A DNA stretch of 64,000 bases from Tethya wilhelma (taxonomy: Eukaryota > Porifera > Demospongiae > Tethyida > Tethyidae), in assembly GCA_964030475.1 (NCBI GenBank), contig CAXIPT010000003.1, forward strand, positions 440,797-504,796. Reading direction: 5' to 3'. Numbering within the stretch: position 1 is the first letter of the stretch; each line of letters begins with the position of its first letter. Below the pieces are notes generated by a model. That model did not search any database and was not told the origin of the DNA. It was given only the letters and a program-made list of their open reading frames with translations. Below are positions 906 through 42,753 of this stretch, in pieces. Both the position numbers and the translations under genes were made by a program.

Positions 906-1069
906 GCGCTCAAACCTTCCATTTTAATGATTGGGGCGGAGCCTAAGAATGCTGATGATTGTACCAAATCTTTAGCAGCTGGTCGACGAATACCAAACCC
1001 CACCCCTCCAGATACGATCTGTGATTCCCTCAAGTAAGCTCTCTCTCTCTCTCACACACACATACACAC

Positions 1070-1119
<50 letters not shown>

Positions 1120-3974
1120 ACATTGCTAAAGACTTAGTCTATGTGAGCTACCCTGGCCTATCATCAAGACCCACCTGGATGGAATTATCACTGTCACTGA
1201 AGAAGAGATCAGTTCAGCAATGAGACTGGTGAGTGCTTTTATCTTATTATCAGTACACCCTTTCAATATTACTTTTCGTACTCCAAAAGCCCCTCATGAA
1301 TATAACTACAATTGAACATAACATATTTACTTATCTGGCCTGCGAAGTTCAAACATGATAAATAATGTTGGGTTGTAAGAATATTATAATGTTTCACTGA
1401 AAGCAGCAATATTTCACCAAAGTACCCAACTGTTCAACTCATTTTCAGTTGAAAGTCAATTGCTTAGTTATGGTCCATGATGATGATGATGGTTGTGATT
1501 CTGTCCTTTATCTATATGCAAATCACTCCATTGTTTGGGAGCATGGCAGTGGATGGCGTCTTGTTTATTCATCTTTTCGATTCGATTTAGATAATTTGTA
1601 ATGTAAGTTTCTGCATCGCGAAATTCATTACATGTGTTGATCAACTTTAGCACTCCATGACAATCTGGGTTTGTAGATTTATATAGACCAGTAATATCTT
1701 TAAATACACTCCAGTCCCAGGGTTTGGGATTAAAGCCTTCATTTCGCATTTTTCTCATGCAATAGTCAATCGTGGTTTTCTTCGTCTCTGATCCTTTGCT
1801 TGAGTCGATGTATTGTCGACCCATCCAAATGGTCACAGTCTCATCACGATGATTTTGATATTTCCACTTCATCAGTCCCCATTGGCAGAAGACGCAGGGA
1901 GTCCAGGTGCTCCAATAATTGGTCACTTGAGGACACTTGTTGATCATCTTCATTTCAGCGTCAAAGTCATTTCGTATACAAACATGATTTTTTGCTGCAC
2001 AAGAGTGTTTGCCACTTTTGTAGAGCATAGATGTTGGGCAGTTGTACTTGAGGTAAGGAAAGCTAGGGAGATAAGAGTAAGATTTTACGTGGGCATCTGT
2101 AATCGGGAAGAGTTTTGTCCCAATAACGCTGTTGGCAACTGCCATCAAGTCATTTAGTGTTATGCCGTGACCACATATTGGGTTGTAATTTTTGGATAGT
2201 CCTCTCCCTTTGAAGAGTCTTAGGGCAAGATTACGAACTACATGAAATTGATGAAAAGAATAATTTATTAATGGGAAACTGACAAATTGAATACCATAGT
2301 TATATACTATGCAATGTCAAGCAGTTATTATAGCCTCATATCTGTAGGAAAGGGAGATTCTGCATGGGTATAGGCCTTATAGTTATTATAATATATTTTT
2401 GTGAAAAACTTGAATATTAAATATGCAATTGAGATATACATGTATGCACAATCATTCAGTGCATGTAAACAGTTTAGCATAAATATGAAGATTGTTTCTT
2501 AGCTATGCCATTTGATATTGTCTCATGCCTATATTATGGTACTTACAATAGGAGTCCTTAAGCATTTCTTGATAGTCATTGTCGTTGTTACAGTAGAAGG
2601 TTGTTCTACGCGGTCTGTGATAGGTCCTTGGGTGGTTATTGTTATTATAATTGTTGTTGTTGTTATATCTCTGCTTGTTGTGGTAGCCTGTCCTCCATCC
2701 ACCAGTTTGAACGTCAGCCATTCCATCCTCCTCTATGTCTCCCTCTTCCATTTGCTCTGCCATAATTTCTCTCTCTAGCAGTGATTCTATTTCAGCCACT
2801 CCATCATCATCACTCTCATCCATCTCTATAATGGCTGGTCCTCCATGAGCTGGTGTGGCTAGGACTCCTCCAACCAGAACTACTACCACAAAGAGATGAG
2901 AGAGTTTAAATGCCATAGGTCGTTTCCTCTGAAATGTTGCTGGTTATGTATAGACTTTGAATGAGCTTGCTAGTCCACAGCTAAAGTTTTCTATCTGGTC
3001 CTTTTATATAAGTTACTGTTACAGAGATATCCGGTTATGAAAGTGGCCATCTCAAGTGTTCATGTTTGCCAATATTTCTATAGTTTCAGTGTACAGTTGG
3101 GGCAATCTTCAGTGGTACAGTTGTATTCATTTCATAGGTATTCATTGCATAAATCTAATGTTGTGTTATGAGGTATTGTTTGACCATCTCTGGTTGGAGG
3201 CTGGCAACAATAGGTTTACATGAACATATTATTATATCAAAATGCTTCTATGATTAGTTAAGTTACTATAATATTATATAGACTGTGTTACTGTAAGTGA
3301 TGTGTTGAATTCCATTTATGTAAGCCTATATATAGTGTTGCCGTATGAAACCAGAATGTGTGTTTGTGTGTGTGAGTGTGTTTGCCACTGCCTAGCAACT
3401 ATACAGTTTTATCATGGGTGTGTCCATGCATGCAGCTAGGATAGGTCATGTCCGTGAGCAAAATTGAACCATTGATATTCGGTCATTTAATTACACAATC
3501 AATCAAGGATCGCTATGCATGGTACTATGTTTTGCTATGTTTTTGCCTTGCCTTTCTTTGTAGCCTTGAGAAAGATTTTGAAGCATTTACATCATTATTA
3601 AGCCAAGGGGGTGCTTGAGCACCTGGGCGCTGATTATAGGTTGATTATACTGGCTGGGTGGAGATGACTAGAGTAGACAGTGGGCAATGGCAAGCAAATT
3701 AGTTGCAGCTGTTAATTTAATAATAATCATATAATTATGCATATATATATATATATAATATTATTATATATTACATTGCCTGTGCATGCTATAACTATAT
3801 GTGTATGCAATAATAATTAAGTGTATGTTACACTATAGTACTATTTGAGTCATTTTCTGAGTGATCATGACTGTCTTTAAGTCATTAAATTTTGTTTAGT
3901 TTCAATTGATGTAAGGGTAATTTTTGCTATTGGTCTTTTTATTTGTTGCACCTTTGTAGTAGTTGCCATTGTAG

Positions 3975-4027
<53 letters not shown>

Positions 4028-7000
4028 GAGTTTTTTAGGCCTATAATAATAACTGTGCTGATTGTTGTTGTTGTTATTATTGTAGTAACTATTGTATTTT
4101 TTAGGCTTAGTGTTGTATTTGTTGTTGTTTTTAAAGTTATTGCTGTATTTGTTGTTGTTGTTATTAAAGTTGTTAAAGTTGTTGTGTTTTGTAGGCTTAG
4201 TGTAGTATTTGATGTTGTTGTTTTTGTTAAAGTAATTGCTGTATTTGTTGTTGTTGTTATTAAAGTTGTTAAAGTTGTATTTTGTAGGCTTAGTGTAGTA
4301 TTTGATGTTGTTGTTTTTATTAAAGTTATTGCTGTATTTGTTGTTGTTGTTGTTAAAGTTGTTGTCTTTTGTAGGCTTAGTGTAGTATTTGATGTTGTTT
4401 TTGTTAAAGTTATTGCTGTATTTGTTGTTGTTGTTAAAGTTGTTGTTGTGTTTTGTAAGCTTAGTGTTGCGTTTGATGTTGTTTTTGTTAAAGTTATTGT
4501 TGTTGTATTTGTTGTTGTTATTGTTGTTGTATTTGTTGTTGTTGTTGATATAGTTGTCATAGTGGTAGTTATGGTTGTATTTTTGGGGGTAGTTGTATTC
4601 TTTTTTAGGCTTATCGTAGTTTATGTTGTTGTACATGTTGTTGTTGTTAACATTTTTGTTGTTGTAATAGTCATTTTTGTTTTTGTTTTTGTTGCATAAT
4701 TGATCCAGATTCGTCTGTTCTATATCCTTTATATATTTGTGAGTCTTCTTATTCTTCTCTTTAAACTCCTCACACATATTAATCACATCAAACACTGCAT
4801 TACAACGTGGTATGTTCACATTTATTTTTGCTTGGGTCTTAAACTCGTTCCAATCCTAGGGTATGAATTTAACGTTGTTCTCCACCATCATTTTCTTCAT
4901 GAGGCAGCCATCAGTTCCCTTGTCTTGATCATTGTAAAGTGCACCTACCCAAATGGTGATATCTTTAATTTTATACTTTTTCATGAGGTCCTTTTGACAG
5001 TTGATACAAGGTGTCCAGTTACTCCAGTACTGTTTGGCCTTAGGACATGCTTGCATTAGGTTTATCTCTGCATCTTCGTCACCAGTATTCGTATAGATAC
5101 CGTGTTTACATCCATTAGTCTTTGGGAGGTAAGCAAATGGCCTCATGCCTTTAACTCCTGCTACAAAAATCGGTTCTTTCACTATGCTGTTTGCAATTGC
5201 CGCTAGCTGTAAGTAGGTTAAGTTATCTCCGCATATGACCTTTTTTATAGCTTTTTCCTTCCATTTATTATTTACGTGGCTGTCTCCTTCGAAAAGGGTC
5301 TTAACAACTTCTTCATCGTAAGTCTGTTTCACTGTAGATATATGCATGTATATATGTGAGATAAACATGAATTAATTTTGCAATGCTTAATTAACTTGTT
5401 CTGTATACTATCATGAACAACTAGACTAAGTGAATGTGGAAGTTTGTACCTCCTGATTGCTCGATCCTGAGTCCTGTACTATTTATTCCCGAGGGGGCAG
5501 ATATATACATGCATGCATGTAGTGTATATATACAATGTCATGATGCATGTATATACAGGATATGTATATATGGAAGTGTGACCAATATTGGAAGTGTATT
5601 TATACATTTACATATATTTGTATGAAGTGGCGTATACGTATATGTGTATGTATTTATACATATACATGTACATAATTATACATATATATTTGCATCCCTG
5701 TATAGGGAATGTTTGTACTCCGTTATGTATGATTTAGGAAGACTTACATTTTTTAGCTATTATATTTTTTTGATTCTTTGGGCCAGAACAAGTGTACTCT
5801 TGCATGTCAGCCATTCCATCATCCTCCATGTCTCCCTCTTCCATTTGCTCGGCCATCATTTCTCTCTCTAGCAGTGATTCTATTTCAGCCACTCCTTCAT
5901 CATCACTCTCATCCATCTCTATAATGGCTGGTCCTCCATAAGCTGGTGTGGCTAGGACTCCTCCAACCAGAACTACTACCACAAAGAGATGAGAGAGCTT
6001 AAGCGCCATTGGTCGTTTTTCTCCAAATTATTTTTTTTTGTTTCTTTCCTTTAGCTGCAGAGTTATCCAGATTGCGAGTGCACGATGGCCTTGTTGTGCT
6101 CAGCTAGCCCTTTTATGGATGAGCAACTTAACAGATCGCGAGAGTTTATACTAATGATTATTATCCATGTATGTGACGTTAATTCTTAAAAGTTTACCGA
6201 TATTTCTTTTGAAAGCAGCTCACATGCATTGGTAGTTGATGTTAATTACATAGGTACTCACCAATGATGGTGTGTATCAGTGCTGTGCTTCAACAGTATT
6301 GTTTCACTAATACCGGCAGGAGACTAGCAACAAAGGAGCTTACATGAATGTATAAAATGTCAAAATGGTGCTATGATTGGGACCCAGTTTATACTAAGTG
6401 TCATATCATAAAGCATACCGATTACTAATGGCCTAAAACTCTCGGCACTCAATACAATGACATAATATTTGGAGAGTGCTTGTGGGAAGCAACACAATAT
6501 AGACTGTGGTATATGATCATGTTAATTGTGAGTGTAGCTGTAATCACAGGTATATCTGAATTGTATTTGTAATAAGTATTGTTTTATTGTTTTATTGTTT
6601 ATGTTTGTAAAGGCTGCCTCTTTACTCAGGCAGCTAGGCTTTCAGTGAATATGCATGCTGTCTACATGCACTATTCAGTCTTTTCTAGTCACATCATTAT
6701 CTTAGCTTTATAATGCCTACTGTACCCTCCCATGTTACACAGTTAAGCAATAATAATATAGTTCCTTTATAGGTATACCAAACTCCATTTGACGCACACT
6801 AGCTAGCCGTTAGTAGTACATTAGAATCTTATGTTGTAACTTAAAAAAACCCTTTTGCTTTATATATGCATCAGTATATTCATGCATTCACTTATTTAGT
6901 TGTTTAGCTGATGTATAGGATCACTGATTGATTAGCATTTGCTGACTAATTATATCCAGTCCATTAAAATAAAACTCAATGCATATATTTTTCCTCTGTA

Positions 7001-10000
7001 AACTCCTGGCAATTCTGAATCAATTCTGATACTCTCACAATCTTTGTAATTCTTGATTTCTGCTTCATGTTTAAATTTTTTCCACTGAATGATCCCATAA
7101 ATTTTCTGGCATTTTCTCACATGCAATCATCGCTGGTTGACTTTAATTGAGCAAATGCCTCGATACTTTGATGTAGTGTCCTTGTATTATAGACCCAACC
7201 AAATGATGACTGTAAAATTCTTATTAAACGACATTCAGTAATAAGTTTCATCTCTGTCTTTACGTTTCTGCTAATTACATTCCAATGTGACCTTTGTTAG
7301 ACCCTCTCTCTCTCTGCGTGTGCGTAGTAGTAGGAGGGTCTAGGCTCGCTATACTAGATGGAAGTAAGCTGGTGTGTAACTAATCAGTTGCTTTCTCCTT
7401 CAATTAAGTTTATGCTCAAAGTTTGAAAATCTATATATAAGTGTCTCAATTGCAGTGCAGGCATATATAATTCTATATTGCATGCAAGTTAGTTAGTAAT
7501 AATTCTTTCTAATATAAAAAATAATTGCAGTTATTAATAATATGTAATAAATGTTTTCAATCAACCATTATGGTAACTTTAAATTTTATATTAATTTAAG
7601 TTAAATAAAGTCATCTTTTATTATAATAATATCAATCTGTATTGGTCTGGCGTTATATATAATTATATAATTATATAATTATTATGATATAAATTGACTG
7701 AAAAAATTTCTTGGCAAAATTTTCCTGATCTCTATAATAATTATTATAGTCAGCAAATTTATCGTTGTATCAGCCCCCCAAGCAAATCCATGCAGGTATG
7801 GTGCTCCCTATATACTGTAGTTGATCAAGCATGCCTCGTTTCATCTTTGTATGATAATATGTACAGATGTTTTAATTTTCTGCAAATTTTTAGCTAAAAT
7901 TAATTTGTACCAAATGATACCACTTGCTTGCATGCATGTATGCCTAATATTTTGACAAGAATTATATACATTTATCGAGTTTCATTTTTGTGGTAATATT
8001 ATAAGTTTATTTCAGTTATACCACTCAGTCTGATGATTTTTGGTGTAGTAGCGTCCATTCTGATACTGAGTGTATAAGTAATTTTTCCATTGCTTTAGTT
8101 CATTAGGCTCCTTGCACTGATACTGCTTGCTATTTGCCCACTTTTTCACTCTCTCTAAATAGTTCGTCATTTTCGTTTTTGCATTTTTAAATTCCTCGCA
8201 TGCACCAATCAGCTCCAATACTGCCAGACAGTTTGAATTCTTAAATTCATTAATCCCAGTATCTGTGGCAAACTGACCCCAATTCCAAGCATTGAATTGG
8301 AAGTATTCTTGGTGCATTTTCGACATACAATTATCAATGGTTGTCTTTGGTGTATTGTAGCCGTTGTCATCTGTGTAGACCTTGCCCAACCATATGGTGA
8401 CTTTCTCGTTCCCTGGATGCCATCTTGCTTTCCAGTCCATGAGTCCCCATTGGCAGAAGATGCACGGTGTGAAGGTACTCCAGTAGTTTGAGGTATCAGG
8501 GCATTCATGAATGAGCTTCATCTCAGCATCGACCTTGTTTCGGTTGCAAACGAGACCTTTTGTTCCACAAACACCACCACCATAGCCGCTCGTGTAGACA
8601 TAGCCATTTTGGCAGTATTTGTTCTTTTTGAACCACGGAAGGTAGGCGTAGGGAAACTTGTGTGCATCTTTTATGTTAAAAATTTGCTTAGCAACCACAC
8701 TGTTTGCAATTGACATCAGGTCTCTCAAAGATAGGCCATAACCACATTTTTTGTTTAAGACACTGTCATATAGTCCCTTTCCATATATGAGAAGGTCAAC
8801 CTTTCTACGAACTGCAAGTAAAGAAACAATCATGAGAATAATAATCAACATAAGAATGTGTTAATTGTTACATATACTAGATTGGGGAATTTCTGTTGTT
8901 ACATTTTGTACCCAAAACGTATAGTTTCAAAGTATATATGAAATAAGACTATGAAAAATTTTTAGCTTGAAAATACATTTATATTTTATTTGGAATTAAA
9001 CTTACAATAAAAGTCTTGATACATTTCCTGAATGCCATAATTAGTCGAACATTTATAGGTTTTTTGCTTGTTAGAGTAGTTGTAATTGGGTTTTGTTTTT
9101 GGATAGTGACCATTGTTGTTGTTGTTGTTGTTGTTATAATAATAATTATCATTGTTGTTGTTGTTGTTATAATTATAATTGTTGTTGTTGTTGCCATTGC
9201 CATTAAAATTGTTGTACGGAGGTCTTGTTTTACCATATCGCTTATTTTTGTAGCCATTGTAGTTATAGTTTTTTTGTCTTCTGTATCCTCCTGTATTGAA
9301 CGGTGGGTCACCTTGTTGTATCGCAGTCATTCCATCCTCCATGTCTCCCTCTTCCATTTGCTCTGCCATCATTTCTCTCTCTAGCAGTGATTCTATTGCA
9401 GCCACTCCATCATCATCACTCTCGTCCATCTCTATAATGGCTGGTCCTCCATGAGCTGGTGTGGCTAGGACTCCTCCAACCAGAACTACTGCCACAAAGA
9501 GATGAGAGAGTTTGAATGCCATAGGTCTTTTTCTCCAAAGTCGTCTTTGCTTTAGCTGCTGCAGGTTATCTATAGATTCTGAGTGATGACTTTTGCTGCT
9601 CTAGCTTTATAGCCTTTTTATAAGTTAGTAACTGACTCAGAGAGATCATGCTAATCGTCTCAAATGATAAAGTTTACCAATATTTTGTTTTGAATGTAAT
9701 TAACAGCGGTACTTGAATGTTAATTTCATAGTCATTCATTGCATAAATTCAATGTTATGTAATGGGGTATTGTTTTACTAGTACTTGTAGGAAGCTAGCA
9801 ACAATAAGCTTACGTGAACGTATGATTATATCAAAATGCCGCTATGATTAAGTTAACCAACCCATGGGTAAGCAGTTTGAGTCCCTCCAGTGCCACAGGT
9901 ACCATATTGTGGGAAAATTTCACTGGGTTTAACTTTCACGGGTTTTGCAGATCATGATCCATCCGTGAAAGTTTTTATCTGCGAAATTTTTCCGTAATGT

Positions 10001-10203
10001 ATATACTTATAGGCTAGAACAGCTCATTCTCGAAAGTTAAAACCGCAAGAATGTTTGACAAGAGACATCCGCGAAAGTTTGACACGGTGAAACTTTCTCG
10101 ATTGCTATATGGTGACCTGCCTTCGTTAGCCCTATATTAAGTCAAGTGCCATTTTAGTGAGTAAATACTTGTAAGCCTAGTGTTATTATGAAACCAGAAT
10201 GTG

Positions 10204-10250
<47 letters not shown>

Positions 10251-12699
10251 CATTGTCTAGCAACTAAACTTTTATCAGCAGCGTGTCCAGGATTCAACTT
10301 ATGGGGGTGCAATATAATGTGGGTGCTAATTAAGCACTTGAAAATTTTTTAGTCACGCCCACTTCAAGTCATTCACGAGTACAATTGTACCATATTTGGC
10401 CATTTGATTACATGCTCAATCAAGGATCAGTATGCATCCATGGTACCATGTTCTGCAACATTTTAGCTTTCTCCTTCTTTGTAACCTTGCAAAAGATTTT
10501 TGAAGTAGTGAGTCACCATTATTTGCTAAGCCAAGGGGATCCGGGATGCAGGAGCACCTGGAGCACTGTCTTAAACGTACCACTGATTATAGGCTATATT
10601 ATTATTGGCTGGGTGCAGGGATGTGACACTAGAACAGATAGGGGTCAGGGATCACAGGGGTCAATTCCTTGGCAAACAAACTAGTTGTAACTATTTTGTG
10701 TGTGTAAAATCAAACAAAATAATGTGATGTAAATATATAGGAGTTATTATAAAGATATGTCAAACATAAGTATATTTTGCAAATCAATTAAACTATATAG
10801 CTAACATTTATAAGATTAGCTTCATTTCCATGACAACGGTGGCTACCAGGTGTTATACTTAATAAATACGAGAAAATTATAGTATTAATCACAGAGTCAT
10901 ATAGTGAAAATTTCCCAATCTCCACTTTAGCTCTGTAATAAAACTAATAGTATTACGATAATTTAATAATATTCATATAATATTTTTAGCTATGCTTGTA
11001 CATATATTGTACTGCCTGTGCACGCTATGATTATGTGCGTGTGTGTGCAATAATTATAATTATTAAGTGTTATACACTATTTGAGCCATTTTCTGAGTGA
11101 CTGCATGTCGTTTAAGTTGTTAAATTTTGTTCAATTTCAGTTGATGTTAAGATAACCTCTACCACTGTTCTCTTTATTTTGTTCCACCTTAAAGTTTGTA
11201 GTTGCCATTATAATTATTATTGTTGTTGTTGTTGTAATTGTTTTTTTTAGCATAATTCATCCAGATCTGACTGGAGTAAATACTTCATATAATTGTAAGT
11301 CGCCATATCCTTCTCTTGAAACTCCGTACACATACCAATCAGGTCGTACGCTGCCTTACAAAGTGGTTTGTTCATATCTATGTTTGCTTGGGTCTTAAAC
11401 TCGTCCCAATCCCAGGGTGTGAAGTTAATTTTGTTGTTCACCATCATTTGCTTCATAAGGCAGTCATCAGTTGGCTTCTTTAGACTAGTGTAAAGTGCAC
11501 CTATCCAAATGGTGATGTCCTTAATTTTATACGTTTTCATGAGTTTCTTTTGACAAAAGACACACGGTGTCCAGGTACTCCAATACTCTGTAGTCTTAGA
11601 ACAGGCTTTCATTTGTTTCATCTCTGCATCTTCATAATTACCACTTACATAGACACCATTAAATTTATTATGACATCCTTTGTTCTTTGGAAGGTAAGTA
11701 AACGAATTCTTGCTGTATTTCCCTACATCAAAAATTGGTTTACCAACTATGCTGTTTGCAATTGCCACCAGCTGTTTCAAGCTTAAGTTATCACCACATT
11801 GTAAGTACGGTATTTGCTTCCCATAAGCTTTTGGGCCGCCTACACCGAAGAACATCTTGGCATCTTTTTCACTGACTGTATAAGTATGTGTTTGCATGTA
11901 TATGTGAGATAAACAATTTATTTATTTGATGCAAAGCTTAATAATAATTATCATAATTATATGCATAATAAATTATTTAGGAAGTAAATTATTTACGATT
12001 TTTATCTTTAATCATTTGTTTTTGATCTTTGAGACAACTGTAAAATTTCTTTGGTTGCATCACAGCCATTCCATCCTCCATGTCTCCCTCTTCCATTAGC
12101 TCGGCCATCATTTCTCTCTCTAGCAGTGATTCTATTTCAGCCACTCCATCATCATCACTCTCGTCCATCTCTATAATGGCTGGTCCTCCATGAGCTGGTG
12201 TGGCTAAGACACCTCCAACCAGAACTACTACCACAAAGAGATGAGAGAGTTTGAATGCCATTGATCGTTAATTTTTCTCCAAGATTTTTTTCTTTTGTCT
12301 TTGCTTTAGCTGCTGCAGATTATCTATAGATTCGCGAGTGATGACTTTTGCTGCTCTAGCTTTATAGCCCTTTTATAAGTTAGCAACTGACTCAGAGAGA
12401 TCATGCTAATCGTCTCAAATGTTAAAGTTTACCGATAAATTTCTCAATTCACAGAGGTACTTGGAGTTCATTTCATAGACATTTATTGCATAAATCCAAT
12501 ATTTTGTATTGAGGTATTGTTTGAGTGTTACTATTTGGAGACTAGCAACAACAGGCTTACATTGATGTATGATTATATCAAAATGGTGTTATGATTATAT
12601 TATGTTACTGGAGTATATTGGTCATGGTTAAGTCAAGTGCCATTTTGATGCAATTATTTGTAAGTGTAAGCCTATAGTGTTATATGAAACCAGTGTGTG

Positions 12700-12748
<49 letters not shown>

Positions 12749-13001
12749 ATGTATGTGTGTGTGCGTCCAAATGCCTGTAAAACAAACAATGTCATTGTAA
12801 GCCCTTAATTGTTGTTGTCTTCCTCTCCACATACAGGTTTGGGAGAGAATGAAACTGGTCATTGAACCTGGGGCAGCATGTTCAGTGGCAGCTGTGCTGA
12901 GTCAGAAGTTTCAAGAGCTAGTTGGCCCAGATGTGAAGAAAGTGGGTGTGGTCTTGTGTGGAGGAAATGTGGACCTCGATAAACTACCATGGATGAATTA
13001 A
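906..13001 (+). CDS. SRR: serine racemase, C-terminal three exons
   Basis: This is the 3' part of a pyridoxal-phosphate enzyme that interconverts L- and D-serine and can dehydrate serine. Exons: 906-1033, 1132-1228 and 12837-13001 (TAA). Phases agree: phase 0 in, then phase 2, then phase 0. The first exon reads ALKPS...GAEPKNADDC and ends PPDTICDSL. The second has LPWPII and SVTEEEISSAMRL. The third begins VWERMKLVIEPG and ends GGNVDLDKLPWMN. Each piece lines up in order with animal serine racemase C termini. The PLP-lysine exons lie off the left edge. The last intron is about 11.6 kb and holds four genes on the other strand. The terminal PDZ-ligand type tail of the mammalian enzyme is absent. 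An AATAAA lies at 13357-13362. Confidence 0.88.
1038..1122. repeat. CT/CA microsatellite in SRR intron
   Basis: A (CT)n run followed by a long (CA)n run fills most of the 98-bp intron between the first two visible serine racemase exons. The repeat directly precedes the acceptor at 1131. Confidence 0.9.
1468..2916 (-). CDS. secreted AID/APOBEC-like deaminase homologue A
   Basis: Two exons: 2547-2916 and 1468-2237 (phase 1 junction), 379 aa. Residues 1-26 are a signal peptide (MAFKLSHLF start, hydrophobic VVVVLVGGVLA core). An acidic leader follows (DESDDDGVAEIESLLERE), then an Asn/Tyr/Arg-rich linker. Exon 2 carries the deaminase-like domain. D-A-E is at 216-218 and W-T-P-C-V-F-C at 235-241, followed by a VTIWMGRQY strand. 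These match the [HCD]-x-E and P-C-x-x-C zinc motifs and the aromatic-S/T-P-C hallmark of AID/APOBEC enzymes. Asp replaces the usual His ligand. The C terminus ends in a run of histidines. The protein is predicted to be secreted. Substrate and activity are unknown, and the family call rests on motif reading only. Subtype is closest to gene C. Confidence 0.75.
3001..3012 (-). promoter_or_regulatory. TATA box of deaminase gene A
   Basis: On the minus strand the sequence reads TATATAAAAGG, about 90 bp upstream of the ATG. An equivalent TATA motif sits at a similar distance in front of all four paralogues. Confidence 0.65.
3125..3260 (-). promoter_or_regulatory. conserved upstream block (gene A copy)
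   Basis: This block, with words such as TTGCATAAAT, GGTATTGTTT, CTAGCAACA-like and ATATCAAAATG, recurs in the same order upstream of genes B (about 6235-6380), C (9725-9865) and D (12465-12605). It is probably a shared duplicated promoter-distal region. Whether it is regulatory or simply has not diverged cannot be told from sequence alone. Confidence 0.5.
3902..6009 (-). pseudogene. secreted AID/APOBEC-like deaminase homologue B with in-frame stop
   Basis: Two exons: 5748-6009 (signal peptide MALKLSHLF and acidic leader) and 3902-5331 (phase 1 junction). Exon 2 keeps D-A-E at 174-176 and N-W-T-P-C-I-N-C at 192-199, then ITIWVGALY. At 4856-4858 codon 246 is TAG where paralogue D has TGG (FTP-W-DW). 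The same frame then stays open for 317 more codons: the rest of the domain (DWNEFKTQA, MCEEFKEK) and a long Asn/Lys/Tyr-rich tail with repeats like KYSNNFNKNN and IKYYTKPTK. A single stop followed by a clean frame suggests a very recent nonsense change, a polymorphic allele, a sequence error or recoding. The strict product would be 245 aa and lack the end of the domain. Confidence 0.7.
3960..4700 (-). repeat. Asn-rich coding repeat of gene B
   Basis: (TTG)n and related TTGTTGTTA-type repeats on the plus strand encode poly-Asn on the minus strand. The long plus-strand and other-frame open readings here are shadows. The segment contains at least five degenerate units coding for K-Y-x-N-N-F-N-K-N-N-x-I-K-Y-Y-T-K-P-T-K. 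Confidence 0.85.
6108..6118 (-). promoter_or_regulatory. TATA-like box of gene B
   Basis: The minus strand reads CCATAAAAGGG about 100 bp upstream of the gene B start. This is the position of the TATA boxes of genes A, C and D. The first T is changed, so this core promoter may be weaker. Confidence 0.5.
6400..7980. other. gene-free spacer between deaminase genes B and C
   Basis: This is AT-rich sequence inside the large serine racemase intron. I see no convincing exon. Short CT and AT repeats occur (for example 7302-7312 and 7658-7690). It separates the two duplicated two-gene modules. Confidence 0.6.
8012..9522 (-). CDS. secreted AID/APOBEC-like deaminase homologue C
   Basis: Two exons: 9006-9522 and 8012-8811 (phase 1 junction), 438 aa, with no internal stops. 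Exon 1 encodes the signal peptide (MAFKLSHLFVAVVLVGGVLA), the acidic leader and a long Asn/Tyr-rich linker. Exon 2 opens FRRKVDLLIYGKGL. Then come CGYGLSLRDLMSIANSVV (helix 1), FPYAYLPW and GYVYTSG (hairpin), D-A-E at 267-269 and W-S-T-F-T-P-C-I-F-C at 283-292. The strand VTIWLGKVY, the helix IDNCMSKM and the FNAWNWGQF segment follow. This order parallels the AID/APOBEC core (helix with [H]xE, SWSPC, LRIFTARLY, MTFKDYFYCW). It is the most intact member of the cluster. An extracellular immune or nuclease-like role is inference only. Confidence 0.78.
9613..9624 (-). promoter_or_regulatory. TATA box of deaminase gene C
   Basis: The minus strand reads TATAAAAAGG about 95 bp upstream of the ATG. 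Flanking 5'UTR words (CTATAAAGCTAG, AGCAGCAAAAG) are shared with gene D. Confidence 0.65.
9905..10110. mobile_element. short inverted-repeat element with GCGAAA/GTGAAA words
   Basis: GTGAAA/GCGAAA and TTTCAC/TTTCGC words recur in both orientations (CCGTGAAAGTT, CCGCGAAAGTT, AAACTTTC) across about 200 bp. This gives imperfect self-complementarity typical of a degraded MITE. It lies between genes C and D and has no counterpart between A and B. Confidence 0.4.
10203..10250. repeat. GT microsatellite
   Basis: A (GT)n run stands at the position equivalent to the shorter GT-rich run at 3358-3385 upstream of gene A. It is followed in both places by the shared text CTAGCAACTA and GTGTCCA. It therefore belongs to the duplicated module. 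Confidence 0.85.
10260..11160. other. inter-gene spacer homologous to 3390-3930
   Basis: No gene is seen. Scattered blocks (TTACA..CTCAATCAAGGATC, GCCAAGGGG, GAGCACCTGG, ATTATAGGTTGATT-like) match the spacer between genes A and B in the same order. This shows that the C-D interval and the A-B interval are duplicates of each other. Confidence 0.6.
11247..12261 (-). CDS. secreted AID/APOBEC-like deaminase homologue D
   Basis: Two exons: 11997-12261 and 11247-11875 (phase 1 junction), 297 aa. Exon 1 holds the same signal peptide and acidic leader, without an Asn-rich linker. Exon 2 has CGDNLSLKQLVAIANSIV, D-A-E at 171-173 and W-S-T-W-T-P-C-V-F-C at 187-196. ITIWIGALY, CLMKQMM, FTPWDWDEF and a final helical segment (YDLIGMCTEFQ) follow. 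It is closest to gene B, and retains the Trp codon that is TAG there. The frame ends LDELC-TAA. Just downstream, 11165-11240 still encodes a short Asn/Tyr-rich stretch in another frame, so the Asn tail seen in gene B was probably lost by frameshift. Confidence 0.76.
12367..12377 (-). promoter_or_regulatory. TATA box of deaminase gene D
   Basis: The minus strand reads TATAAAAGGG about 105 bp upstream of the ATG. The surrounding sequence is nearly the same as the gene C promoter. Confidence 0.65.
12692..12765. repeat. GT microsatellite at left edge of the 1.6-kb duplication
   Basis: A (GT)n run with a few interruptions. The first unit of the 1,612-bp tandem duplication begins immediately after it at GTCCAAATGCC. 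Confidence 0.9.
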
Positions 13002-13748
13002 ATTCAGGTTCATTGTAAACAAATGTAAGCCATGAATGGCAGTATAGACTTTGGTTATGCTATATGTATACATGTGTGTGACAATTTTGAAGTCTTAATG
13101 ATGCTGTGCTGACAGTCTGTGCTTGGCTATGCATGTATACTTGCAATTGTAACACTCTCTGTTCCGATCTATGTACACATGTATGACATGCATGCATGTA
13201 CTGTCACACAATGTGTATTTTGTTGGAGTATCATCAAACTGTGTGTGTGTAGTGACACAACCAAAACTCTAAAATCATGCCTCCTTCATGACTGTATAGC
13301 TGTAGCTATTTAAACCCATTTACACGTAAGAGACCTAGTATGTTCCGAGTAGATACAATAAAATTATTATAGTGTTGTACACGTTCAAAGTCTCAAAACA
13401 GGTTTGATTCTGAGACTCTGTTTTGCTATGTGATGATAAACATGTTAGCTGACAAGCAATTACATGAGCATGTCTGTTAAATTAGAGTATTATGGCACTC
13501 TGAACTTGTATGAAACCATATAGACAACATAATCTAGGTCGGCAAACATTACTTTTGTGTCGTATATGCATTTTGAAGACATAGAAATATTTTGTTCCAG
13601 GTCTACAATCATGATAATTATACAAGTTCAAAGTATCAAAACACTATATAACTCGAATTAAATTAAAAATTAATATTATAATGTGTGTGTATGTGCCAGT
13701 GGGTGCACGGGATAGTGTGAACAAACTTTATACCCGCGGTCTTCCAGA

Positions 13749-13838
13749 ATGAAACTGGTCATTGAACCATGCAGGAGAGGTTTCAGTGGCAGCTGTGCTG
13801 AGTCAGCAATTTCCAAACGGGCTAGTTGGCACTTAAGC
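13749..13838 (+). pseudogene. degenerate copy of serine racemase last exon (unit 1)
   Basis: About 90 bp starting ATGAAACTGGTCATTGAACC match the last coding exon (GGTTTCAGTGGCAGCTGTGC, GCTAGTTGG). Small indels destroy the frame, and an upstream splice acceptor is lacking. It is an older partial duplication, since the same relic recurs in unit 2. Confidence 0.8.
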
Positions 13839-14143
13839 TTATTCATTTTAAAACTTTCATGCATGCATCACACTACATCTGCAAGTTGTTTGCAAGCCTT
13901 GATCAGAACAGGAAATAACTATCGCAATGTTTAGTTTTATAATTATAATACATGCTCAATTAAATTATCGACCAAATCCTTTTGAAGAACAATTCTATCA
14001 AATTCAATTGCAACTGAAGTAGAAATTAAGTAGCTGCTTTTATTGCTATTAAGTTTATGAACTATAACAAATAATTTTATAAAAATAGAAACTGTTAAAC
14101 TTATACAACATACATGCAATGCAAAAAAGGCTAAAAAATAGTG

Positions 14144-14386
14144 TTATGATTCGGCAGTGGTGTTCAAACTCTGTTTGCTTCTGTGCTTCTTTCGTTTCTT
14201 CTTGCTCAACAGTTCATCTCCCATATCCCACTCCTCCATCATGGCTCTGAGGATGGGTCCCATCTTGTAGCCTTCACTGGAGGCCATGCTATGAGAGTCT
14301 ATGTCGATGGAGGGTAAAGCTGATGTGCCTGTGATGGGAGTCATGGCAAGGTCCAGGTCAGGGTCTTTGAATTCACGTCCAAATGC
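14144..14386 (-). other. duplicate cadherin terminal exon (distal copy)
   Basis: The coding sequence is the same as the 15756-15995 exon except at its 5' edge. There the usual DDD is replaced by AFGR, read from duplicated serine racemase intron sequence. A TTTGTTTTACAG acceptor fits exactly in phase 0. It could therefore act as an alternative last exon of the cadherin, or be an inert duplicate. Confidence 0.6.
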
Positions 14387-14448
14387 CTGTAAAACAAACA
14401 ATGTCATTGTAAGCCCTTAATTGTTGTTGTCTTCCTCTCCACATACAG

Positions 14449-14613
14449 GTTTGGGAGAGAATGAAACTGGTCATTGAACCTGGGGCAGCATGTTCAGTGG
14501 CAGCTGTGCTGAGTCAGAAGTTTCAAGAGCTAGTTGGCCCAGATGTGAAGAAAGTGGGTGTGGTCTTGTGTGGAGGAAATGTGGACCTCGATAAACTACC
14601 ATGGATGAATTAA
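14449..14613 (+). other. duplicate serine racemase last exon
   Basis: This is a full copy of the last serine racemase exon with its acceptor (CCACATACAG) and TAA. It could be used as an alternative 3' exon encoding the same protein end, but it lies downstream of the first copy and its polyadenylation signal. Intact and probably redundant. Confidence 0.75.
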
Positions 14614-15360
14614 ATTCAGGTTCATTGTAAACAAATGTAAGCCATGAATGGCAGTATAGACTTTGGTTATGCTATATGTATACATGTGTGTGACAATTTT
14701 GAAGTCTTAATGATGCTGTGCTGACAGTCTGTGCTTGGCTATGCATGTATACTTGCAATTGTAACACTCTCTGTTCCGATCTATGTACACATGTATGACA
14801 TGCATGCATGTACTGTCACACAATGTGTATTTTGTTGGAGTATCATCAAACTGTGTGTGTGTAGTGACACAACCAAAACTCTAAAATCATGCCTCCTTCA
14901 TGACTGTATAGCTGTAGCTATTTAAACCCATTTACACGTAAGAGACCTAGTATGTTCCGAGTAGATACAATAAAATTATTATAGTGTTGTACACGTTCAA
15001 AGTCTCAAAACAGGTTTGATTCTGAGACTCTGTTTTGCTATGTGATGATAAACATGTTAGCTGACAAGCAATTACATGAGCATGTCTGTTAAATTAGAGT
15101 ATTATGGCACTCTGAACTTGTATGAAACCATATAGACAACATAATCTAGGTCGGCAAACATTACTTTTGTGTCGTATATGCATTTTGAAGACATAGAAAT
15201 ATTTTGTTCCAGGTCTACAATCATGATAATTATACAAGTTCAAAGTATCAAAACACTATATAACTCGAATTAAATTAAAAATTAATATTATAATGTGTGT
15301 GTATGTGCCAGTGGGTGCACGGGATAGTGTGAACAAACTTTATACCCGCGGTCTTCCAGA

Positions 15361-15450
15361 ATGAAACTGGTCATTGAACCATGCAGGAGAGGTTTCAGTG
15401 GCAGCTGTGCTGAGTCAGCAATTTCCAAACGGGCTAGTTGGCACTTAAGC
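15361..15450 (+). pseudogene. degenerate copy of serine racemase last exon (unit 2)
   Basis: This is the +1612 counterpart of the relic at 13749, with the same indels. It was carried along when the whole block was duplicated. Confidence 0.8.
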
Positions 15451-15755
15451 TTATTCATTTTAAAACTTTCATGCATGCATCACACTACATCTGCAAGTTG
15501 TTTGCAAGCCTTGATCAGAACAGGAAATAACTATCGCAATGTTTAGTTTTATAATTATAATACATGCTCAATTAAATTATCGACCAAATCCTTTTGAAGA
15601 ACAATTCTATCAAATTCAATTGCAACTGAAGTAGAAATTAAGTAGCTGCTTTTATTGCTATTAAGTTTATGAACTATAACAAATAATTTTATAAAAATAG
15701 AAACTGTTAAACTTATACAACATACATGCAATGCAAAAAAGGCTAAAAAATAGTG

Positions 15756-15998
15756 TTATGATTCGGCAGTGGTGTTCAAACTCTGTTTGCTTCTGTGCTT
15801 CTTTCGTTTCTTCTTGCTCAACAGTTCATCTCCCATATCCCACTCCTCCATCATGGCTCTGAGGATGGGTCCCATCTTGTAGCCTTCACTGGAGGCCATG
15901 CTATGAGAGTCTATGTCGATGGAGGGTAAAGCTGATGTGCCTGTGATGGGAGTCATGGCAAGGTCCAGGTCAGGGTCTTTGAATTCGTCGTCATCCTG

Positions 15999-16038
<40 letters not shown>

Positions 16039-19000
16039 ATACGTGCGTGTGTATATATATGCGTGCGTGCCTGTGTGTGTGTGTGTGTGTGTGTGTGCAT
16101 GTGTGTGGAATTTTCTAATCATGCAATAAGATATTAGATGGTGCACGTGCATTGCCAACTACTTGACTTTCTTCACATTTAATGCTTTGTCTCTAACCCT
16201 TCAAACTGAGCTCTAATTTTACCACTCTATATTCACTCCATGTTAACTTTACATCTTTTTCTGATGAAAATATGTATTCAAAGTGTATCCTCCCACCATT
16301 GTGATTTGCATGGCTTTTCAGTATTGTTGGTGTGTGTGTTTGTGTGGTGTGCCCATTGCTGTTATAGTATTAGCTATTTGCTGTCAGCCCTTATGTACAA
16401 TGTTATGTAAGCCAGTTCTACTTTAGAGAGCTAGTATAGAAGTTATATTGTGAGTAGTTTCAAAGACAGACTCCTATCCTCATGCAATTACTAAACAGGC
16501 AGTGGATTATTTGTGTATTTATGCTTGCATCTTACCAAGTATGATTCATCAAAGTTCTCATTCATGAAGCTGTGCTCCATTGGTGGAGGGTATATTTGGT
16601 TGATGGCTGGATCGTGGGGGGAAAGTTCAAATATCTGGTCAATGTTGTTGTTGTCATATTCCCATGCTGCATTTCCGAATCTGTTTCTCTTTCTATCGGT
16701 CTCGGTACGAAGCTGTTGGTACACCGTGTTGATGCGATCCCTGTATGTATGTACATATGTGTGTGCGTATGTGTAATAAGACAGTACTATATCTTACACG
16801 TGTGTGTGAAATAATTTTTATTAGACCATGCAAGTATACGCTTGGTTCCAAAACCTATCAATTTGAATTAAATATCTCTTCACTAATATGATGGTACAAA
16901 TCTCAGCTTCATACATGCAACCTTCTTACACAGAATCAAAATTTTTCCGCCTTGACACGTGTATATTTTCTTAGTCTAAGAAGGTTTCATGAAGCTGAGA
17001 CCTTTACCATTACTGTGAACAGATCTATCAATGATGCCCACTTTGATAGAATTGATCCGCAAAAAAAAAACACCAAAAAACATGTGACTATTATTTACTT
17101 ACGCATTTCTCAAAGGATCCTTTTCTCTCTTTATTTTGAGGAAGCAGTAGCAGAAGAGGCAACAGAGGAACACAGCCAGCGCCACAATGAGCATGCCTAT
17201 CACCACAATCACAGCTATCCCGATCTCTGTCTCAAAGAATTCCCTCGGCTCCAGTCCTTTGCTCGTTGGCGTGATGATTGACTGGTTAGCAACAATGATG
17301 GTGATGTTCCTAACGATAGGGTTGGTTTCATTTGACTCGTCTTCCAATGAAAGTCTGACCACTGTTCCATTATCTTTGCTAGTGACTGGCTGGAAGTTCA
17401 TCAGTGTTACTTGGTTGGATACGTTCTTAACTAAGCTGTACTTGAACTCCCCACTGACAGGTTCTAGGAAGGCCGACACTTGGCTGGTTGAATCTGGATC
17501 TGTGAATTCAATGGCTGATAATTCTTGTGTGATACCACCAGGAAGTAGAGCGGTGAACTTGTTCAGTTCCGTACCAATCGGTGTGATTTCCACGAACGAA
17601 ATCAGTACGAAATATTCCACCACATCTAGAGGCACAAACTCTGGGTCATTATCATTAATGTCTTCTAACATCACCACAACGTATGATGTCACAGACAATG
17701 CCGATGGTTCACCAAAGTCTCTCGCTCTTATGGAGATATTGTGGAAAGTATCCTTTTCACGATCGAGAATCTTTCCAGCTACAACAAAAAAGTCGCCATT
17801 AGAACGATCAATCCTAAAGAAATCTGATCTTCCATTGATTGCTCCGATGATGGAATATTCAACAACTGCTGCACTCGAGCCTGGTTCATCAAGATCTGTG
17901 GCTTGAACCCTTCCTAGTCGGCTGTCTTCGTCATATCTTCCCTCCGTGATGTTAAACATGTAGCCATCTCTTTGAGAAAAGACCGGAGCATGGTCATTTT
18001 GATCCAGTACCGTGATAGTTACGTAGAGATTAACATCTGTCGAAGTCACTTGGTCAATGACTCGTATCTTTAGCGTGTAGGACGAGATTGCCTCTCTGTC
18101 AAGTTGATCAAATGTTGTCAAGATTCCAACAGGGCTGATCACAAATTCATTGCCCGTATCTCCTTCTTCTATTTCATAGGTGGCATTTCGAGTGATGTTG
18201 AAATCTTGAAGCGTAAGAAATTCTCGAGCGTCATAAGTCTGTCCCAGGACGTTCTCCTCAAAGACAGCTGTATCTCTGGTAGCCGAGGCAACGTATATCA
18301 CAACAGGAGTTGTATCAGTTGAAATACCATCACTCACACTCACGGTAAAGTTGTACCTCTCTCTGTGGTCGTCAGGGATGGGTACAGCTCTCTGACGTAA
18401 GACCCCATCTGGCGAATCAATGGTAAAGAGATTCCTCACCTCCTGGTCGTCTGTGTTGATCTGAAATGTAAATGTTCCAGTGATATCTTCGTCAATGACT
18501 TCCAGCGTGAGTAGGTGAGTGCCTGGAGGCGAGAGATTGTCGATATCAATGATGTGTATCGAAGATCTGAACATTGGAGCATTGTCGTTCACATCGCCAA
18601 TGGTTATTGTGACAACTGCCGAACCAGTTAGAGAAGGAGTGCCAAAATCGGTAGCTTCTATAATGAAAGAGTAGCGCTCATTTCTCTCACGATCAAATTC
18701 TCTCACTGTCATGATATCACCCGTGTTAGGATCAATATCAAAATCAACACTTGAATCAATTGAGTACAAAAACTGAGCATTTTGATTGGAATCAATATCA
18801 CTCGCTTCAACTCTTAACACAAGCGTATCATTGGGAAGGTTTTCAGAAACAGTTCCGTTGTACACTGCTGAACTAAACCTAGGCGCATTGTCATTGTAGT
18901 CAGTAAGAAAGATGGTCACTATGGCGCTGGCATTATTGGTTCCCACCAGTGCATCAATAATGAGGGTATAGTTCCTTGTGTCAGACTCATAATCAATCAG

Positions 19001-22000
19001 AAACTTGTTAGTGAGAACAATATCCCCACTTGCCGAGTTTATCACAAATATTCCAGCGTGTTTTCTATCAGGTCGTATGGAGTATGTTACAGCTGCACCT
19101 CCACTTGTGTTAGCAATGGCTTCTTGCAGTATCGTCCCGTTGAAGATCACAGTTGATGTATCAGTGTTTTCAGAAATAGAGACATTGAATAAGCCGGGTA
19201 CGAATCTTGGTCTTGTCAGGTCCGTGGTGACCACTTGGACCGTTACCGTGACAACAGTAGTGAGAGGCAAAGTGGGACTTGAATCAGATACTAAGATTTC
19301 AATGACATACGTGGTACTAGCACTGATAACCCCACTGAAGCCTAGCTCTCCTGATGTAGCGTTTAGAAGGAAGTCACCTGCTGGAAGCTGAGGTCGAGTT
19401 GCTTCATTAAATCTATAAGAAAGTAGGCCATTGTCATCGCTGTCTATGTCAGAGCAGGACAGTTCTGTGAGAGATATGTAAGAATGTGTGCCCAGTTCTA
19501 GTTCTGTATTGATCAGAGTGGTTGTACACATGGGGGCATTGTCGTTGATGTCAAGAACCGAAATGATCACATCTGTGCTTACACTGCGAGGGGAAACCCC
19601 TTGTATGATGTCATTATCGCTCACAGTGACTGTCAGTGTGTAACTCTGGACAGACTCATAGTCCAGTGTCCCAATCAGAGTGATATTACCAGAGGTGGCA
19701 TCAATTAGAAACACATCTGTGTGCGAAGATGTAGAATAACTTATCATTCCTCTACCATCAGAATCAGTAGCTTGGACACTCCCTAGTACACTTCCAGTTG
19801 CCACATCCTCTGAAATATTGAACTGAGATGGCGAGACTATCACAGGGGCGTGGTTGTTGACAGGAAGTACTGATACGATGATGGTAGCTGTTGAACTTAG
19901 TACAACTCCTTCTCCCAGTCTTGTTTCAGTGTCTGTGCAAGTCACGGTCAATCTGTGACTGATAGATGCTTCGTAGTCTAAAGACGTGCGAAGAAAAACG
20001 CTATCCATTGGATTCAGAGCAAAAGGTGAAGATGGATGACTTGGAGATAGAGATATGGTGGTACTTGTGCCATCAGGATCACTGCAGGTGTAAGACTGTA
20101 TCTCAGTACTGAGTGCAGCATTCTCTGATAGTGTGATCAGCTGTGTGCCAGCTGGCTGTAAAATAGGGACGAGATCGTTCACGTTTTCTACGAAAATGCT
20201 CACCAGTGCCGTAGCCGTCATTTGGTTGGGTGAGGGAGAATCATAGGCTGTTACCGTGACAGTGTATGTCTGTGTGTCTTCAAAATCGAGAGGTAGAAAG
20301 AGAGAAATATCTCCAGTGATTCTATCAATGCTGAACGTCCCCAGTCCATTACCACCAGTGATATCATACGTGACTTCATCCTCTACATCACTAGCATTGA
20401 CAGTGGTCAGGTAGGATCCAACCATGAAGCTTTCAAAGACACTGATCACTAGCGAATCGTGTAGGAATTGAGGCGGGGCATTAACACCTTCGACTCTTAG
20501 CGTAACTGACACAGAATCAGTCAGTCTTGGATCACCATTGTCCGAACATACAAACATCAGTTCATAAGATCCAGCACTCAGGGTATCATTCACTATTAGG
20601 TTACCCCTGACAACTCCATTGGTGCTCGTGGCTTCCAAAATCACTCCGAAATCGAGCAAAGTGGAAGTTGTTTGTAAACTTAGTTGTGAGTTATTTCCAG
20701 CAGGGTCTGTATCATAGCAGGTTAGATTGAAAAGTGTGGTCCCCACAGATTCATTAGTGGAGGTTATTATCAGTGGGGAGTCGAGGCTTACAAACATCGG
20801 GCGTTCGTTCACATCTTCAATATTCACTGACACGCTAATTTCATCAAAGAGTCCACCATTGTCTGTAGCTCGGAGAGTGAATTGAAAGAGAGAGTTGGTG
20901 GTCGCATTCTGTGGTCGGATGGTGGTACGAATCACTCCCATTGAGTCAACAGTGAAGTACGATCTACTTTGTCCATCAGTAATGGAGTACTGCAAAATGT
21001 TGTCTGTGCCTTGGTCAGAATCAGTGGCCATTATTGTTCCAATCCGTTCACCAGCTCTTGTGTTTTCACTGATGGAAAATGCGTACGCTCGATTGGCAAA
21101 CATTGGCGGGAATTCGTTGATTCCTGTTACTACGACAATCAGTGTGGTGGGCATACTGGACAAAGAGGGAGCTCCGTTATCGACACACACTACTGTGACA
21201 TTGAGTTGGGTTTCAGTTTCAAAATCCAGCGACTGGACCAAAGATATTGCTCCTACACTGTCTACACTCAGAGTGGCATTATATGGAGGTAGCAGTTCAA
21301 AGCTAACCACACTGTTATCTCCAAGGTCGCTGTCAGTGCACGTGTAAAAAGTGAAGGGACTGTTGAGTTGGAAATTTTCAGGCAGTGTTACAGTTTGTGG
21401 CAGAGACGGGCTAATGATTGGACGATTGTCATTTTCATCGCCAATGGTTACCTGTACCAGTGCCAAACCAACGGCCTGTGTGATGGTGTCCCTTGCCTTC
21501 ACTACGAAGGAGTACATTGACACAACTTCACGATCCAGTGATGCTGAAGAGACAAAGATCCTTCCACTGCCAATCTCGATGGCAAATGGAAAAGAATCGG
21601 GAAGATTGAAGAGCGTGTACTCAATATTGTTAGGATTAGGTCCAGTGGCCGTTACAGTCAGCACTGAAGTACCATTGAGTGAATTCTCCAACACACTACT
21701 CTGGTACTCTGCCTGTGAAAACACAGGTGGTTCAATATCTGTAACTTGAATGTGAATGGCAATATTTCCAAGTGCAAATTGCGTCATTGCGTTGTTGTCT
21801 TGACAACGTAGGCCTAAAGACACCACCACATCTGCCGTCAGGTCGCGACCCTGTCCAGACCACAGCAGCACATTGGACCTGCTCAGATTAAAGTAACCCA
21901 CACTGTTGCCATTGGCGATGGAGAGTGTAGTGCCACTCCCATCAGCATCCGTACACGTAAAGGACTGGACTGGGAATCCAGAAGGAGAATCAGCAGATAT

Positions 22001-34000: not shown

Positions 34001-34420
34001 GGCTGTATCTCTACCGAAGGTGGGAGTGACTTGAGACGACACCCCTATACATGTCATGTATGAGAATAAGACGGTTTATCTTTAAAACTGCTCACAACTT
34101 AACTTATACAAGAATTAGCTCTCTCAAGTAGAACTGGCTTACATAAGGGTTTGACAGAAAATTTATAGCTGAGACTATAACAGCCTTATAATTAATTCAG
34201 GCCACACACACACACATACACAGACACACAAGCAATGTTGAGAAGCCTTGCAAATCAATGGTGGGAGGGTACAACATCAGTAAAGCACTGCCTTACACTA
34301 CCTCTTAAATTATTAGACGATCTGGATCACTTTAAAGTTATCAATCTACTTACTCTTTATTCCAACCACCACCAGAATGAATACTGCCACGAGAGGGTAC
34401 TTCATTTTCCACGTCTTCAT
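15756..34420 (-). CDS. giant transmembrane cadherin, about 53 repeats
   Basis: Four exons with matching phases: 34354-34420 (signal peptide MKTWKMKYPLVAVFILVVVG), 17103-34044, 16536-16740 and 15756-15995, giving about 5,817 aa. Exon 2 (16,942 bp) encodes nearly the whole ectodomain. Counting linker motifs (VNDNTPVL, INDNAPDF, LNEFVPEF and others) gives about 53 cadherin repeats of about 105 aa, with LDRE/LDYE and DxD calcium motifs. No EGF or laminin-G domain precedes the membrane. One transmembrane segment lies near 5631-5658. The cytoplasmic tail of about 160 aa has an acidic stretch and a terminal KKKRKKHRSK cluster; I see no clear beta-catenin site. Many linkers are degenerate (NEF, DNL, EPL), so calcium sites vary. 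Its role is presumably cell adhesion or recognition. It resembles Fat/Dachsous-type giants in scale but cannot be assigned to either. Confidence 0.92.
15998..16100. repeat. GT microsatellite in last cadherin intron
   Basis: Two (GT)n runs lie immediately upstream (minus strand) of the terminal exon acceptor AACAG. They border the right end of the 1.6-kb duplication. Confidence 0.9.
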
Positions 34421-37071: not shown

Positions 37072-37144
37072 GTAGCTGTACGTATACGTAGCTCTGTGCT
37101 GATAAATTGCTCATGCAGACGTACAGTGTCTAGCTAAAGTAGCT

Positions 37145-42690: not shown

Positions 42691-42753
42691 AGAATCAACT
42701 TGTGTCACAATAGTGTCAGTTTATTTCAGCTGTTACTGCGAACTAAGACAAAA

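Follow-up and report, generated by a model that had tools for sequence, protein, structure and literature searches.

Predicted secreted AID/APOBEC-fold proteins with an aspartate at the putative zinc site in a nested gene array of the sponge Tethya wilhelma

Can a secreted protein of the AID/APOBEC kind still work as a deaminase when the first ligand of its predicted zinc site is an aspartate and not a histidine? The question is raised by four minus-strand genes, here called A to D, in a 64,000-nucleotide stretch of the genome of the demosponge Tethya wilhelma (contig CAXIPT010000003.1, positions 440,797 to 504,796; hereafter the window). Their array occupies 1468-12261, bounded by gene A's stop codon and gene D's ATG; this is exactly the span given in a preliminary description of this DNA, which had proposed four secreted AID/APOBEC-like deaminase homologues nested in an intron of a serine racemase gene (Table 1). 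Its account of four two-exon genes stands as far as exon structure is concerned, all four having GT..AG, phase 1 introns (309, 416, 194 and 121 nucleotides in A, B, C and D, respectively), but the frame of gene B is broken at 4858-4856 by a TAG codon, within the domain and downstream of PCxxC, at a position where gene D has Trp. The intact genes are thus A, C and D only; past this TAG, gene B's frame continues through the rest of the domain into a long Asn-rich tail.

As had been described, the domain of each gene carries D-A-E, then 18 residues, then PCxxC and an ITIW- or VTIW-type strand. The zinc-ligand His of the H[AV]E motif is absent from A-D and Asp stands there in all four, and in the predicted structure of gene D the putative ligands and the Glu lie at the starts of neighboring helices. 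Sequence profiles and predicted fold together establish A, C and D as AID/APOBEC homologues, in agreement with the kinship first proposed. The Pfam search that had been suggested for gene D exon 2 gave 27.6 bits against AID (PF18767; expectation value (E) 2.9e-6, cut-off 27.3), with 26.9 bits for whole protein D and no AID match listed in Pfam for whole proteins A and C. The SNAD4 cut-off of 27 bits (PF18750) is not reached by D exon 2 (18.9) or A (14.2), C being without a listed match; L006, a gene of the same branch elsewhere in the genome, scores 28.6. A profile of seven DxE-type rows searched against the PDB found AID/APOBEC chains in 46 of the 48 matches listed to E 10, and hhalign compared a DxE-branch profile with SNAD4 at a probability of 97.5. 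The predicted structures place helix 4 between strands 4 and 5 of a deaminase fold, each model's structural match list, capped at 50, holds AID/APOBEC proteins, which act on polynucleotides, and the outcome named beforehand as damaging, a model lacking the alpha-beta-alpha core, did not occur.

A secreted sponge relative of AID/APOBEC is already a known kind of protein. Krishnan et al. 2018 reportedly gave this group its name, SNADs. The available parts of two further papers describe SNADs as secreted AID/APOBEC relatives of unknown activity, with SNAD4 in sponges (PMC8201067, PMC11004436). The window genes resemble SNAD4 in their predicted signal peptide, AID/APOBEC fold, Glu and PCxxC, and profile similarity, and SNAD4-type HAE genes (L009, L011) are present in the same genome; they differ from it in having Asp for the zinc-ligand His and WSxWTPC (WSxFTPC in C) in place of WINNSPC. 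From AID and APOBEC3 (PF18767, PF18771) they are set apart by predicted secretion, Asp for His, extra cysteines, a one-exon domain and 18 rather than 24-36 residues from Glu to PCxxC, and by the strict AID/APOBEC motif they are not members, since the His is absent and the spacing short. The comparison with fish SNAD1 is by description: the accessible part calls its zinc-coordinating motif highly conserved and does not mention DxE. Bacterial polymorphic-toxin deaminases ([HCD]xE, CxxC) belong to the same superfamily, are secreted and in some cases carry DxE, according to the part of PMC3482391 available, and they differ in that some fall in another division of the fold and in being parts of larger toxins. 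A bacterial or viral origin gained no support from one scan each with a DxE-type alignment, which returned 8 pattern matches in genome_contigs and 41 in viral_contigs, none confirmed as a DxE-branch relative. The literature searched, whose coverage does not include Krishnan et al. 2018, yielded no description of the DxE branch, the His/Asp exchange, the homogenized leader or the nested array.

Further evidence comes from the rest of the genome (124.6 Mb, 204 contigs), where a search with the two Pfam families, AID and SNAD4, and five domain proteins recovered at least 18 deaminase-family loci, 11 in the DxE branch, 3 of HAE type and at least 4 diverged. Besides A-D, the DxE branch includes L005, L006 and L008, on the same contig as the array and ~130 kb away, as well as L007, L031 and L032 (the latter two single open frames) and L071, which shifts frame. 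The HAE, SNAD4-type loci are L009, L011 and L013, the last with a stop in its frame, and the diverged ones at least L010, L012, L016 and L060. All four of these have apparently lost both H/D and Glu and may be secreted pseudoenzymes; in L010, L012 and L016, whose open reading frames were read by eye, PCxxC is kept. Three further candidates are weaker or unread (C1:15779867, C2:3231940, C2:1266687), and C1:3397192 lies above the SNAD4 cut-off with its sequence unread and counts as a candidate only. Sub-cut-off SNAD4 matches were not trusted alone, because the SNAD4 model produced such matches in 8 of 14 control genomes, as did the AID model in 1 of 14.

The DxE branch was compared over 13 rows, 11 of them from this genome (B and L071 partial) and two, P0008 and P0009, retrieved from the protein database. 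Glu, Pro and both Cys residues never vary among these rows; the first-ligand position holds Asp in 12 of them and His in L008 alone. With that column removed, a tree was computed from 20 rows, leaving out L060, L010, L012, L016, L013, P0006 and P0007. In it a 100/100 branch parts the DxE branch from the SNAD4-type rows, and A-D likely belong to a DxE branch that neighbors sponge SNAD4, a placement that the preliminary description did not name. L008 groups with L005, L006, P0008 and P0009 (support 96/92), and forcing all Asp rows together without it costs 10.08 log units at an approximately unbiased P value (p-AU) of 0.014, which is optimistic, as an earlier 25-row tree had already placed L008 with L005 and L006 (support 98/95) and the topology test was thus not blind. 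A warning from the tree program flagged a meeting of long branches where the outgroup joins the DxE branch, and L008 is itself long. Two state changes are needed at the first ligand; their direction is not readable from change counts alone, and with the HAE outgroup a simple reading of the sequences would be a single gain of Asp and a single reversion to His. From a functional metal site one would expect this pattern, in which two residues able to bind zinc replace each other and the remaining site residues are retained.

The exon upstream of the domain encodes, in all four genes, the putative signal peptide and the acidic leader previously claimed: residues 1-26 form a hydrophobic, signal-like stretch, residues 27-69 carry a net charge of -14 to -17, and the protein that follows is basic in the intact genes (+17 in A, +22 in C, +10 in D). 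An N-terminal signal peptide is a SNAD-group trait, and the secretion of the A, C and D products first proposed is supported by these predicted leaders and by those of related genes, a hydrophobicity scan having found signal-like leaders upstream of L005-L009, L011, L012 and L013, none upstream of L010, and a doubtful candidate at L016. Over the first 200 coding nucleotides, all six pairs of window genes are 95-97% identical in aligned columns (187/197 to 192/197), with edges at about -8 and +207 from the ATG that are sharp in ungapped comparison; blastn matches are confined to this block in three pairs (91.7-94.5% identity) and extend upstream of it in the other three (77-86% overall). Synonymous divergence (dS) in the block is 0.07-0.16 over 68-69 codons in all six pairs, whereas in exon 2 the proportion of synonymous sites changed is 0.65-0.77, near saturation, in five of the six (B-D dS 0.50), and a recent duplication of whole genes is therefore rejected. 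This leader is found at four places in the genome, all of them the window genes. The simplest reading of these sequences is that gene conversion keeps it alike across A-D, the alternative being strong constraint on the leader DNA itself.

In light of these results, we lean by a modest degree towards A, C and D encoding secreted, zinc-dependent AID/APOBEC-fold deaminases that act against foreign nucleic acid, with an acidic leader restraining a basic domain; what we infer here is that Asp binds zinc, that the proteins deaminate, that the leader is removed and that they serve in defense. The signal peptide would direct the protein out of the cell, and the acidic leader (-14 to -17) would mask the basic rest of the protein (+10 to +22 in A, C and D); once the leader is removed, the mature domain could bind nucleic acid and deaminate cytosine, with zinc held on Asp-Cys-Cys and Glu as proton shuttle. 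The targets would be viral or microbial nucleic acids, extracellular or in phagosomes. Gene B may formerly have encoded such a protein, until it gained its stop, and the array would change by duplication and decay, with gene conversion homogenizing the leader as the domains diverge. As a more tentative conjecture, the proteins could make up a distinct secreted AID/APOBEC-fold class with Asp-Cys-Cys zinc, in which the ligand switches between Asp and His to suit extracellular chemistry and a diversifying arsenal sits behind a recombination-maintained leader serving as acidic safety cap.

Several observations weigh against active, leader-restrained deaminases. The motif order claimed earlier is that of AID/APOBEC, but the claimed spacing did not stand: the available part of PMC12249777 puts H[AV]E and PCxxC 24-36 residues apart, above the 18 residues from Glu to PCxxC in A, C and D. 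In SNAD4-type P0001 this gap is 22, so the published range is not strict in secreted relatives. Whole proteins A, C and D score under every curated Pfam deaminase cut-off. For gene A, one model of five is confident (mean predicted local distance difference test score 70.1; the rest 33.2-47.8), and Foldseek returned no match for the gene A model at E up to 0.001. The acidic leader is uneven in relatives, residues 25-66 having a charge of -2 to -14 in six of seven (L005, L006, L007, L031, L032 and L071) and +4 in L008. Finally, in AID itself the first-ligand change H56R abolishes deamination while retaining single-stranded DNA binding, and H56Y fails in cells, as the same part of PMC12249777 reports; on this precedent, the Asp proteins could do no more than bind nucleic acid.

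The main rival accordingly takes them for secreted nucleic-acid-binding pseudoenzymes, in which the change to Asp ended deamination and the fold serves as a binder, a decoy or an aggregating antimicrobial, with the Asn-rich stretches helping; it is possible, though on balance we doubt it. AID H56R, inactive and still DNA-binding, offers a precedent, the post-leader part is basic in A, C and D, and the sister branch of L010, L012 and L016, with H/D and Glu apparently lost and PCxxC kept, indicates that catalysis does get lost in this family. However, the catalytic Glu, which a binder would not need, is invariant in 13/13 DxE-branch rows, and the tree calls for either a reversion to His or two independent gains of Asp. 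Asp, furthermore, can bind zinc, unlike Arg or Tyr, and DxE is on record in toxin deaminases (PMC3482391, in part).

An enzyme active on another extracellular substrate, whether a free nucleoside, a free nucleotide or a modified base, with a scavenging or metabolic rather than defensive role, is unlikely. Some enzymes of the wider deaminase fold do act on free nucleotides, secretion together with an altered metal site would be compatible with a new substrate, and fish SNAD1 also responds to cold (PMC11004436, in part). The structural entries in the capped lists act on polynucleotides, however, which speaks against such an enzyme but does not exclude it, and tandem duplication, diverged domains and broken copies fit conflict better than housekeeping metabolism. 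That D-A-E and PCxxC arose by coincidence in an unrelated disulfide-rich secreted protein is very improbable: whole protein C matches no Pfam deaminase family at E 1 and the first protein-database search, with gene D by itself, returned nothing, alignment queries being required, but profile, profile-profile, fold and family evidence all converge on AID/APOBEC and led us to reject it.

As to the surroundings, the nesting proposed for the array is confirmed by racemase exons on either side of it, of which 906-1034 and 12837-13001 match serine racemase (E 4.5e-9 and 4.9e-14); with 1148-1228 the three exons are collinear, and the array thus lies entirely in intron 1229-12836 of a plus-strand serine/aspartate racemase gene. 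Between genes B and C lies a remnant that contains stops and has no PCxxC, probably a decayed fifth domain copy and graded no higher given its best E of 0.62; tblastn with 25 family rows at E 0.01 found no domain outside genes A-D in the window. In A and C the leader is separated from the domain by an Asn-rich stretch, Asn-rich coding repeats occupy 3902-4855 (-), the C-terminal tail of gene B past its stop, and 9006-9300 (-), and DNA downstream of gene D is similar to that tail. A TATA-like element precedes the ATG of each of A-D by similar distances of ~90-116 nucleotides. At 12764-15987, a 1612-nucleotide tandem duplication (1611/1612 identical), which may be a true duplication or an assembly artefact, repeats the last racemase exon. 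Elsewhere in the window are a satellite-like array at 1-420 with cagtatacag and cagttcacagttcactgtca units, a 5658-residue single open frame with cadherin repeats at 17099-34075 (-; seven cadherin stretches in the 999 residues scanned), a small open frame at 37106-37585 (+) with a signal-like start and charged remainder, and at 42667-44064 (+) a predicted secreted protein made mostly of 13-residue repeats, DIGGERANQQARY, the last two having no Pfam family at E 0.001. Weak Pfam matches of window proteins to NA37, NETI and PRC2_EED_ins were judged to be chance.

Table 1. Features of the nested array and its host gene, in window coordinates.
Feature	Position	Strand	Description
Gene A	2916-1468	-	two exons; 379 residues; open throughout
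Gene A exon 1	2547..2916	-	signal peptide, acidic leader, short Asn-rich stretch (predicted)
Gene A exon 2	1468..2237	-	DxE deaminase-fold domain
Gene B	6009-3902	-	two exons; frame broken by in-frame TAG
Gene B exon 1	5748..6009	-	signal peptide and acidic leader (predicted)
Gene B exon 2	3902..5331	-	DxE domain cut by in-frame TAG
Gene C	9522-8012	-	two exons; 438 residues; open throughout
Gene C exon 1	9006..9522	-	signal peptide, acidic leader, long Asn-rich stretch (predicted)
Gene C exon 2	8012..8811	-	DxE deaminase-fold domain
Gene D	12261-11247	-	two exons; 297 residues; open throughout
Gene D exon 1	11997..12261	-	signal peptide and acidic leader (predicted)
Gene D exon 2	11247..11875	-	DxE deaminase-fold domain
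Gene D D-A-E	11622..11630	-	predicted first zinc ligand Asp and catalytic Glu; starts helix 84-91
Gene D P-C-x-x-C	11553..11567	-	two predicted zinc ligands; starts helix 106-116
Homogenized leader block, gene D	12055..12269	-	about -8 to +207 from ATG
Equivalent leader blocks	A 2710-2924, B 5803-6017, C 9316-9530	-	
Probable decayed fifth domain copy	~6994-7278	-	tblastn best E 0.62, others weaker, but collinear
Racemase exon	906..1034	+	serine racemase residues 199-241, E 4.5e-9
Racemase exon	1148..1228	+	PALP family, E 0.018; weak alone but collinear, between the other two exons
Racemase last intron	1229..12836	+	holds whole array on opposite strand
Racemase last exon	12837..13001	+	aspartate racemase 278-328, E 1.1e-14; serine racemase 274-325, E 4.9e-14; near C-termini

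Secreted AID/APOBEC relatives are described, in the available parts of PMC8201067 and PMC11004436, as a branch, present early in animals, of a family from which antibody diversification and antiviral editing later arose. The Asp proteins of T. wilhelma would be an unusual offshoot of this little-studied group of possible immune enzymes, and a near-identical leader over old, divergent domains is what one might expect of secreted effectors under conflict. Together, an Asp-ligand branch and one His-bearing close relative provide a natural experiment on the requirements of the metal site.
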